From: Elusimicrobiota bacterium
Lineage (GTDB): Bacteria; Elusimicrobiota; Elusimicrobia; UBA1565
DNA: 46,205 bases
Direction of reading: 5' to 3'
NCBI GenBank assembly: GCA_016218495.1
Contig: JACRDU010000057.1
Location: 1-46,205 of the forward strand
Made by a program: the position numbers and the translations under genes
The notes under the pieces: generated by a model
What the model was told of the DNA's origin: nothing
What the model saw: the letters and a program-made list of their open reading frames with translations, nothing else
Databases searched by the model: none
Shown here: piece after piece, positions 11,385 to 14,094 of the stretch
How the letters are laid out: every line of letters begins with the position of its first letter
Numbering within the stretch: position 1 is the first letter of the stretch

Positions 11385-12593
11385 TCAGCCCGCTTTCCCG
11401 TCTGCGAACCAGACCAGGGGATCGGTTCGGAGAAATTCGTCCAAGCCGACGCCGGCGGGACCGACCAGCACCGCCTTCGAGGCGCCGCACTTGCGGGCCA
11501 ACCTATCCAGAACCTCGCCTCTGCTCTTCCTGTCGGAAATGGAGACCTCGAACGCGATTGCCTTAGAACCCTTCTTGGCGATGAAATCCAACTCGAGGTC
11601 CCGGTCCCTCCAGTAATAGACCTCGAGCCCGGCGCGGAGCAGATGCGCGCCCACGGCGTTCTCGGCCCAGCGGCCGTAGACCTCGGGTTCCGCTAGAACC
11701 TCCGACGGAGTCTTATCCTGAAGCGCCGCGACCAGGGCCGGAGCCAGCACGATCAGTTTCGGGCTGGAAGCGCGGATGCGCAGGATCTCCGGGCTGTACT
11801 TCTGCAGCGGCGCGATGAGGAAGGCCTTGGACAGCAGGTCGAGATAGTGGGACAGCGTCGTCACGTTGCCCGTATCGGTCAGTCGCCCGAGCATCTTCTG
11901 CAGCGAGACGATCTCGGCGGGATGGCGGCAGGAGAATTCGAAGAGTCGGCGCAGCAGGACCGGCTTCTCGACGGGATGGAGAAGCAGGAGGTCCTTGTTC
12001 AGGACGCTTTCGACGATGGAGTCTCTGACGTAGGCTAGAAAGCGGCGGGCATCCGGGAGGAACTCATGCAGCCGCGGGTAGCCGCCGAGGGCGACATGGT
12101 CCTTCCAGGCGACGCCGAAGGCCGCAGATTCCTCCTCCAGGCACCAGTGGGGAAATCGAATCAATTCGAATCGGCCCGCGAGGCTCTCGGTCAGGCCCTT
12201 TTCGACCAGAAGCGCGGATGAGCCCGAGATGACGATGCGCGGCCGTTTCGCCGGCGCGAGTCGCTGGCTGGAATCGAATTCCCGCTTGACGACCTCGCTC
12301 CACCCGGGGATCTTCTGGAGCTCGTCGAAGGTCAACAGTGTCGGCTTCCCTGTCCGCGCAATGACGTCGGCCTTCCGCCAGTGGGCGGTGATCCATTCAT
12401 GGTTCGGCGATGCCGGCGCATCGGCCGTCGCGGAAACGGCCGCAAAGCCCTTTCGACGCAGCGCGGCCATCGCCTGGGCGATCGCGGTCGTCTTGCCGAC
12501 CTGACGCGGCCCCAGGAGGATCTGCGGCAGGCGCGGAGGCTCCTGCAGCCGTTTGATCAGTTCCCGAGTACCCTGCCGGAGGAAGAGCTTCAT
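11385..12593 (-). CDS. AAA ATPase with DUF4143-type C-terminal domain
   Basis: A 402-residue protein. Walker A is GPRQVGKTT (about 28-36), Walker B is LLTFDEL, and IVISGSSA is the sensor-like strand, followed by the arrangement of the archaeal-type ATPase family. The C-terminal domain (EVYGRWAENAVGAHLL...LELDFI...AFEVS) has the DUF4143/PD-(D/E)xK layout, but the final lysine is replaced (EVS), so nuclease activity is doubtful. Such ATPases are frequent, multicopy accessory genes of unclear function. The ATG at 12593 follows TACACT by 7 bases; upstream methionines are on the wrong side of the promoter. Base composition is lower in GC than the neighbours. Confidence 0.82.
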   Translation of the reverse strand: MKLFLRQGTRELIKRLQEPPRLPQILLGPRQVGKTTAIAQAMAALRRKGFAAVSATADAPASPNHEWITAHWRKADVIARTGKPTLLTFDELQKIPGWSEVVKREFDSSQRLAPAKRPRIVISGSSALLVEKGLTESLAGRFELIRFPHWCLEEESAAFGVAWKDHVALGGYPRLHEFLPDARRFLAYVRDSIVESVLNKDLLLLHPVEKPVLLRRLFEFSCRHPAEIVSLQKMLGRLTDTGNVTTLSHYLDLLSKAFLIAPLQKYSPEILRIRASSPKLIVLAPALVAALQDKTPSEVLAEPEVYGRWAENAVGAHLLRAGLEVYYWRDRDLELDFIAKKGSKAIAFEVSISDRKSRGEVLDRLARKCGASKAVLVGPAGVGLDEFLRTDPLVWFADGKAG

Positions 12594-12600
12594 CCTGGAG

Positions 12601-12629
12601 AGTGTAGCTGAGGAGATGGGACCAGTCAA
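12601..12629 (-). promoter_or_regulatory. sigma70-type promoter TTGACT-N17-TACACT
   Basis: On the minus strand TTGACT (12629-12624), a 17-base spacer and TACACT (12606-12601) precede the ATG by 7 bases. It is the best -35/-10 pair in the window and still has leaderless geometry. Confidence 0.7.
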
Positions 12630-12632
12630 CAG

Positions 12633-12654
12633 ATTAGTAGGAAAGCCTACTAAT
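12633..12654. promoter_or_regulatory. inverted repeat upstream of ATPase promoter
   Basis: ATTAGTAGG and CCTACTAAT, perfect 9-base arms, flank AAAG. The site lies 3 bases upstream of the -35 element of the ATPase promoter. It may be an operator or a site recognised by the ATPase itself. Confidence 0.55.
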
Positions 12655-12682
12655 ATGTATGCCGGCGCGTCGGGTAGCCTCA

Positions 12683-12716
12683 AGAACAGGGCCCTCCATT
12701 AAGAGGGCCCTGTTCT
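12683..12716. repeat. strong 14-bp stem hairpin
   Basis: AGAACAGGGCCCTC and its exact reverse complement flank the loop CATTAA. It lies between the end of the nucleotidyltransferase operon and the ATPase promoter. No U-run follows on either strand, so it is either an unusual terminator or part of the mobile cassette. Confidence 0.6.
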
Positions 12717-12840: not shown

Positions 12841-13533
12841 TCAAGTTCCCGGCGAAGCCAGCAAAGCGCTCAAGTCGTCCGCTTGCGCCGCCTTGAGTCC
12901 GGCCAGGACCGCCTTTCGCCAGCCGGCCGGTAGTCTCTCGAACTTGGACCGCGCCTTGCCTTCGTCACCGCGCGCAACGACTTCGCGTAGGACCTCGACC
13001 GCCTGAAGCCGGTCTTTGGCCGCCTTCTCTTCGTAGGCGCGGCGCCCGCTGATGATGAGCTTCTGGAAGGCAAAGTTGATTGGATGCGGGAGCACGAGGT
13101 CGAGACTGCCGCTTCTGACCTTGATCGTGTCTTCCGACAGCAGGCTGATGAAGCGCAGCGGCTGGGCTTTGACTCCCAACTGCCTCACGAGATACGGCTT
13201 GTCGGTGCCGCGCCCACGCTCGGCCACGAGGAAGTCGATGATGAGCTGGGGATGGCTGAGGCTGATGGAGCCGTCGCCGTGGAACTCCGTGATGAAGCCC
13301 ATATCCTCCAGGAGTTCGGCGACATCGACTTCCCCCTTGAGCCTCGGCGGCGTCGGGATCAGGAAGTCCATGTCGCGCGTGCGGACCGCAGACAGGGCGG
13401 CCCCGGCGAAATAGCCCTTGTAGAAATGAACGCACCAACTCCCGACCAGGACCATGCCCTGGAGGACGCCCGCCTTGTCCAGGCGGCGCAGGACTTCGAT
13501 GACGATTTCAGCGGGCGCGTCTTTTCCTTTCAT
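12841..13533 (-). CDS. nucleotidyltransferase-fold protein, toxin-antitoxin or abortive-infection style
   Basis: A 230-residue protein. GSWCVHFYKGYFAG followed by RTRDMDFLIP gives the GS...DxD pattern of the nucleotidyltransferase superfamily, and LSHPQLIIDFLVAERG supplies the third acidic strand. The layout resembles AbiEii/MNT-like proteins found in two-gene modules. The C-terminal half (residues about 135-230) is helical and charged. The start at 13533 lies inside the end of the upstream partner gene (26-base overlap), implying coupled translation. Target and activity are inferred by family only. Confidence 0.72.
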   Translation of the reverse strand: MKGKDAPAEIVIEVLRRLDKAGVLQGMVLVGSWCVHFYKGYFAGAALSAVRTRDMDFLIPTPPRLKGEVDVAELLEDMGFITEFHGDGSISLSHPQLIIDFLVAERGRGTDKPYLVRQLGVKAQPLRFISLLSEDTIKVRSGSLDLVLPHPINFAFQKLIISGRRAYEEKAAKDRLQAVEVLREVVARGDEGKARSKFERLPAGWRKAVLAGLKAAQADDLSALLASPGT

Positions 13534-13831
13534 GGAGCGCCCGTTTCAGGAACACGATCTGCTTCTTGAGCTCCGCGACGAGACTACGGTACTTCGCCTT
13601 TTGGCTCGCCGCCTGCTTGAAGTCCGCGACTTCTCTGGCGGAGAGCTTGCCTTTATAATCGAACCGGATTTTATCCGCCTTGCGGTAGGCCAAATAGTAG
13701 AACAGCCCGCCCTTGATCTTCTTCGGGACGAGACTCCCTTTCGGCAATGCCGCGATCGCCTGCCGGTATCTCTTCAGCAGGCGCTCGGAGTTCTCGAGCT
13801 CCTCGGAAAGCACGCCTTTCATTGGGTTCAT
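13508..13831 (-). CDS. small basic partner of nucleotidyltransferase (possible antitoxin)
   Basis: A 107-residue protein from the ATG at 13831. It is strongly basic and helical, with ALPKGSLVPKKIKGGLFYYLAYRKADKIRFDYKG in the middle, a pattern of small proteins that precede nucleotidyltransferases in other genomes (DUF6788-like, from memory). The C-terminus is a Lys/Arg-rich coiled segment. A longer reading from 13909 would run through the repeated binding sites and is rejected. It is the first gene of the pair, the usual antitoxin position, and the repeats overlap its promoter. Confidence 0.65.
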   Translation of the reverse strand: MNPMKGVLSEELENSERLLKRYRQAIAALPKGSLVPKKIKGGLFYYLAYRKADKIRFDYKGKLSAREVADFKQAASQKAKYRSLVAELKKQIVFLKRALHERKRRAR

Positions 13832-13840
13832 GGCCGCCAC

Positions 13841-13942
13841 GGTTACCAAACAATATTCACTATTAGCATATGCTGTTAGGTAACCGGCCGCAAGCCCCAT
13901 CATTACCAAACAGGAACGGTTTCAGCGACTATTGTTAGGTAA
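13841..13942. promoter_or_regulatory. four alternating TTACCWAACA sites at 30-bp spacing
   Basis: The 10-base element TTACCAAACA occurs at 13843 and 13903, and its one-mismatch reverse complement TGTTAGGTAA at 13874 and 13933. Start-to-start spacings are 31, 29 and 30 bases, about three helical turns. The outer bases of the first pair extend the arms to 12. A TATTGT -10 candidate (13855-13850, minus) lies within the first pair, so the array is a likely autoregulatory operator for the nucleotidyltransferase operon. Confidence 0.65.
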
Positions 13943-13997: not shown

Positions 13998-14015
13998 CAT
14001 CATCGAACATAGGTA

Positions 14016-14086
14016 CTGCCGAACTAGGATTCGAACCTAGACAAAGCGCTCCAGAGGCGCTTGTGCTACCGTTACACCATTCGGCA
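14016..14086 (-). tRNA. tRNA-Gln (anticodon CTG)
   Basis: A full cloverleaf can be drawn on the minus strand: acceptor TGCCGAA/TTCGGCA, D arm around GTGTAACGGTAGCAC, anticodon stem GCGC/GCGC with loop CTCTGGA (CTG, glutamine), and T arm CTAGG-TTCGAAT-CCTAG. The discriminator is G, as expected for Gln. The CCA end is not encoded. Its 3' end faces the accessory island, the usual side for integration. Confidence 0.95.
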
Positions 14087-14094
14087 ATAGGCAT

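Follow-up and report, generated by a model that had tools for sequence, protein, structure and literature searches.

Paired-arm promoter operator of a small basic protein and PF12281 nucleotidyltransferase module in Elusimicrobiota: a probable AbiE-like toxin-antitoxin family

In this study, we characterized a two-gene module of an Elusimicrobiota bacterium, in which the gene for a small basic protein precedes and overlaps that of a nucleotidyltransferase. It lies in a 46,205-nt stretch of DNA that was analysed as a whole (the window). Comparison across the phylum indicates that the conserved unit upstream of the small-protein gene is a single pair of inverted 10-bp arms, which we predict to be the operator of the module's promoter. 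Taken with the pattern of gene loss, this suggests that the module is probably an autoregulated, AbiE-like toxin-antitoxin of a family not yet described. The features of the locus, in window coordinates, are as follows.

12841-13533, minus strand: PF12281 nucleotidyltransferase gene, short form, 230 aa (PF12281 E 7e-23)
13508-13831, minus strand: small basic protein gene, 107 aa (from the ORF list)
13843-13852, minus strand: proximal pair, right arm TGTTTGGTAA (minus 5'->3'), early in the transcribed region, at a distance of 31 bp from the left arm
13865-13870, minus strand: inferred -10, TATGCT, 17 bp from the -35, where the family alignment has TATAAT-like hexamers
13874-13883, minus strand: proximal pair, left arm TTACCTAACA, between -35 and -10, its position kept in 26 loci
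13888-13893, minus strand: inferred -35, TTGCGG, where the family alignment has TTGACA-like hexamers
13903-13912, minus strand: distal (auxiliary) pair, right arm TGTTTGGTAA (minus 5'->3'), 30 bp from its left arm
13933-13942, minus strand: distal (auxiliary) pair, left arm TTACCTAACA, exact match
14015-14087: tRNA-Gln, ending 72 bases upstream of the array

The two genes share 26 bases, as the first-pass annotation had described for a small basic protein plus nucleotidyltransferase pair, and the coordinates, the PF12281 match and a pI of 10.5 for the first product all agree with that description. In most relatives the enzyme gene starts within the small-protein gene, 1 to 59 bases short of its end. 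Within the earlier span of 13508-13942, the array itself occupies 13843-13942 and precedes the start codon at 13831. The G+C content of the module (48-63%) relative to that of the window (70%) hints at acquisition. Insertion at the tRNA-Gln was considered and rejected, given that the congener G184 keeps the neighbouring genes, with no tRNA found in the 6 kb of it that were covered and no clean empty site. Adjoining the module is a gene for an AAA + DUF4143 ATPase (window 11385-12683) with a strong match to the PADLOC candidate PDC-S01; in G189 (L012), the solo small protein is likewise followed by a gene for a DUF4143-like ATPase.

Four TTACCWAACA elements in alternating orientation had been reported upstream of the pair, and exact matches are present at all four positions, 13843 (+), 13874 (-), 13903 (+) and 13933 (-), in steps of 31, 29 and 30 bases. 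Exact matches averaged 0.01 in 200 dinucleotide shuffles of the window (maximum 1), and GTTACCWAACA with at most one mismatch occurs 6 times in the 4.15-Mb genome, 4 of them in the window array; no other paired sites were found in that genome. On the coding (minus) strand the array runs TTACCTAACA-20-TGTTTGGTAA, 19 bases, TTACCTAACA-21-TGTTTGGTAA, and its best description is a paired site present in two copies.

The search set comprised 341 Elusimicrobiota genomes, of which 25 carry the small protein, the window's own included and G190 represented by a fragment only. Of 27 loci with a full-length small protein, 26 have paired inverted 10-bp arms immediately upstream, at the promoter, so that the element is indeed found beside homologous pairs elsewhere, where the first-pass annotation had proposed to look for it. 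Arm starts are separated by 30 or 31 bp at 24 of the 26 loci and by 28 and 32 bp at the other two (within-pair spacing 30.3 ± 0.7 bp); shuffled upstream regions, all 28 together, yielded 0.36 exact inverted repeats of 10 bp, whatever the spacing. The arms fall into several classes (TTACCWAACA, TTACCATACA, TTACCCAACA, TTGCCTAACA, TTATCATAC, TTACACTACA and TTCCACTACA) and are nearly symmetric within a locus, where they agree at 9.4 of 10 bases vs. 8.0 between loci. The one exception, L015 (G163 C81), has a tandem pair roughly 800 bases upstream, before an HNH-type gene that precedes the small protein. The gene order at L015 is HNH-type gene, solo small protein and DUF1016-like gene.

When the proximal sites were aligned on their left arms, TTGaca appeared at -10 to -5 and TATAaT at +13 to +18, with a 17-bp spacer. 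These hexamer positions put the left arm inside the spacer of the promoter and the right arm shortly beyond the expected start, a conserved arrangement that is, as far as alignment can tell, the layout of a repressor and its operator. In the window the corresponding hexamers, TTGCGG and TATGCT, match the consensus poorly and were missed by a generic promoter scan, which speaks against the toxin-antitoxin reading; they were placed by the family alignment. The earlier statement that the array overlaps the promoter applies to the proximal copy, which sits on the inferred promoter, and not to the distal copy, which lies outside it.

The same geometry bears on two other explanations of the arms. 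Since they are complementary, they might act as an RNA element, folding into transcript hairpins like those of type III toxin-antitoxin systems. However, the -10 box falls between the arms, so the proximal left arm would be untranscribed from the inferred promoter, and Rfam gave no match at the locus apart from the neighbouring tRNA. With one arm outside the transcript, we removed this possibility from consideration as exceedingly improbable. The arms could also be sites at which a mobile cassette recombines or transposes, such as those of the integron attC kind. Integron attC boxes follow the consensus RYYYAAC/GTTRRRY, which ACCTAAC/GTTAGGT resembles, and the lowered G+C content of the module, the four loci with a pair on both of its sides and the few orphan pairs would suit a mobile cassette. 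Yet many relatives carry ACCATAC or ACACTAC arms, which depart from RYYYAAC/GTTRRRY while the geometry is kept; a fixed 17-bp promoter register would be unexpected at a recombination site; and the congener G184 offers no clean empty site. Because the consensus is broken while the promoter register is kept, sites of this type were rejected, and we regard them as improbable.

Roughly a dozen loci carry a second pair upstream; about half of all loci lack one there. Where two upstream pairs are present, the distance from the right arm of one to the left arm of the next is 27.0 ± 3.9 bp (12 loci, range 18-33). In L011, L013, L030 and L035, the nucleotidyltransferase gene is directly followed by a pair that matches its locus in arm class and spacing, and no locus has both such a pair and an upstream second pair. 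The first-pass annotation had placed all four window sites in phase on one face of the helix. Since the between-pair gap varies as against the fixed spacing within pairs, this is not the conserved feature, and the four-site phased array was abandoned as a functional unit, many loci having a single pair. The simplest reading is that the second pair serves as an optional auxiliary operator, perhaps for cooperative binding or looping.

Several observations assign the element to the small-protein gene. Among the 24 genomes that encode a full-length small protein, 20 contain the canonical operator pattern, vs. 8 of 317 others (Fisher p 3e-22), and the latter number is near the level of a reversed control pattern, which matched 6 genomes. 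G339, one of the 20, is counted by an orphan copy, the site at its small-protein gene having a variant arm. Arm distance covaries with small-protein distance (Mantel r 0.61, 0/5000 permutations), and this was also seen at r 0.30 (11/5000 permutations) when four divergent loci were left out. The operator is kept at loci that have lost the enzyme or have a broken one (G189, G163 C86, G161, G004 and G005), and an operator pair is absent upstream of 14 long-form PF12281 enzymes. Retention without the enzyme, absence at one-piece enzymes and covariation of the arms thus tie the element to the small protein, which is likely, on these comparisons, to be the reader of the operator.

The small protein has 29 K+R and 10 D+E residues. 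An AlphaFold2 model built from two sequences (pLDDT 86) has a helix at residues 3-27, three strands at 33-57 and a second helix at 65-106. A fold search of this model gave no match with E below 0.001 and no recognised DNA-binding fold, the latter being a point against a toxin-antitoxin. The VIA matches of this search were coiled-coil arrangements that did not rise above the noise. The protein could be assigned to no family of Pfam, NCBIfam, PHROGs or PADLOC and had no PDB relative, and PADLOC models did not match its enzyme partner either; when it and 26 relatives were run against Pfam, no AbiEi family appeared among the matches listed. Searches of plasmid, phage and viral-contig collections found no copy, which again counts against a toxin-antitoxin, such modules being common there. 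A match on a Natrinema plasmid had no enzyme pair beside it and was taken as chance.

Relatives of the beta domain of the small protein were found in other settings. By hhalign, it matched the N-terminal region of long PF12281 enzymes of the phylum at 89.9% (shuffled columns ≤0.8%, reversed 7.7%), and it matched the region N-terminal to DUF6922, in genes that precede AbiEii-like enzymes, at 93.0% (controls ≤1.8%). Two plasmid-borne enzymes of the GSU2403 family from Alphaproteobacteria (rhizobial) have a like N-terminal stretch, as judged by eye. Since the domain occurs with nucleotidyltransferases in three arrangements, it probably contacts the enzyme or its substrate.

The product of gene 2 had been annotated as a nucleotidyltransferase, and both its PF12281 (NTP_transf_8) match, at 82.2 bits vs. 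a gathering cut-off of 26.3, and its pol-beta catalytic motifs support this. The motif residues are GS 31-32, DxD 54/56, D100, K158, R165 and K173-D174. S32, D54 and D56 occur in 19/19 relatives and G31 in 18/19, and position 100 is D or E in the alignment. K158 and R165, invariant in an alignment of 15, are seven residues apart, as in AbiEii motif III. K173-D174 is conserved with no D three residues on, so the +DxxD of AbiEii motif IV is absent. PF12281 was the one family reported for gene 2, with no match to the PF08843 profile, and hhalign of its family against AbiEii relatives aligned the motif I-II region only, at 18%. As motif IV is missing and the family is PF12281, gene 2 was not classed as AbiEii. 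An AlphaFold2 model of gene 2 from two sequences gave no usable structure (pLDDT 51). In the literature searched, no study named PF12281, NTP_transf_8 or DUF6922, and GSU2403 was named once, in a study of integration host factor; the family may still have been studied elsewhere.

The small protein is patchily distributed, occurring in 25/341 genomes over many families, and within the phylum set it outlasts its partner. It persists without an intact enzyme in at least 5 loci, and G339 is broken in both genes. Conversely, every short-form enzyme seen with an intact frame was accompanied by an intact small protein; enzyme fragments without the small protein occur in G135 and G165, both incomplete and the latter at a contig end. 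Such an asymmetry is as expected of a toxin and its antitoxin, and it is what speaks for gene 2 as a putative toxin that gene 1 would neutralise. The main rival to a toxin-antitoxin is a regulatory subunit, in which the small protein would be the partner of a housekeeping or RNA-modifying nucleotidyltransferase, repressing its own operon and neutralising no toxin. Fusion of the beta domain to the N-terminus of long PF12281 enzymes indicates that it can work in one chain with an enzyme, and this fits a subunit as well as an antitoxin. Against a subunit stand the operators kept without an enzyme gene, the broken enzymes behind intact small proteins, with the reverse not seen, and the patchy distribution; we consider it possible and rather unlikely.

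Of the earlier proposal of an autoregulated toxin-antitoxin that uses an array, the promoter operator is retained and the array as a unit is not; the loss pattern of the pair is toxin-antitoxin-like. In the mechanism that we propose, which resembles that of the AbiE/MenAT nucleotidyltransferase toxin-antitoxin systems, the small protein would bind two inverted 10-bp arms, three helical turns apart, that flank the -10 box, and so would block RNA polymerase at the promoter of its own operon, with repression strengthened by the second pair where there is one. It would also neutralise the overlapping nucleotidyltransferase, probably through its beta-sheet domain. If the small protein fell short, the operon would be derepressed and the enzyme would stop growth, for instance in phage infection, probably through nucleotide transfer to tRNA or some other target.

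Previous studies have shown that the AbiE antitoxin represses its own promoter via inverted repeats that lie over it, AbiEi binding two 23-bp repeats 3 bp apart (PMC3985639, PMC7319586). AbiE (AbiEi-AbiEii, type IV) resembles the present module in being a two-gene operon with the antitoxin first and a pol-beta-type nucleotidyltransferase second, and AbiEii motifs I-III (PMC3985639) are matched in gene 2 by hGS, DxD and a K/R pair seven residues apart. In contrast, AbiEii belongs to PF08843 and has the +DxxD of motif IV, Pfam detects no relationship between AbiEi and the small protein, a single 107-aa unit, and the module's arms are 10 bp long and 30-31 bp apart, unlike the 23-bp repeats. The nearest studied operator is that of Rv2827c, which has two pairs of 23-bp inverted repeats with the proximal pair straddling the promoter (PMC7319586). 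The Rv2827c-Rv2826c system of M. tuberculosis (AbiEi/DUF1814) shares the two upstream pairs and the placement of the proximal one, whereas its antitoxin family is unrelated to the small protein (Pfam, PDB sequence search) and its repeats differ in length and spacing. Long PF12281 enzymes of the GSU2403 family have the same enzyme family and a related N-terminal domain, but they are one chain of ~350 aa with no operator pair upstream. Pairs of DUF6922 and AbiEii have the related beta domain in a gene before the nucleotidyltransferase, although with an extra DUF6922 domain and an AbiEii-like partner enzyme. The module would extend the nucleotidyltransferase systems by a probable new antitoxin family, whose operator is delimited clearly enough for direct testing, and would place PF12281 enzymes in a toxin-antitoxin setting; the arm classes would provide a natural series for decoding how the small protein reads DNA.

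It is conceivable, although we hold it doubtful, that the small protein represents a new regulator-antitoxin family, its beta domain serving several nucleotidyltransferase families and its two-arm operator spanning three turns, with stray operators over MNT-HEPN, HNH and DUF1016-like genes forming a small defence regulon in some genomes. Sites away from the module were also noted. A canonical pair (L118:1501-1540, G339 C107) lies ~100 bases upstream of nucleotidyltransferase and HEPN genes that have their own promoter-like hexamers further down and no adjacent small protein. In G325 C7, a near copy of that genome's own module operator-promoter, with TATAAT inside (L113:1501-1540), precedes an AP-endonuclease-2-like gene and then a DUF1016-looking gene, and a tyrosine-recombinase-like gene lies upstream. 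Finally, G001, a genome without the small protein, contains a related inverted repeat, TTACCGAACT...AGTTCGGTAA, six times, on L092 and other contigs.
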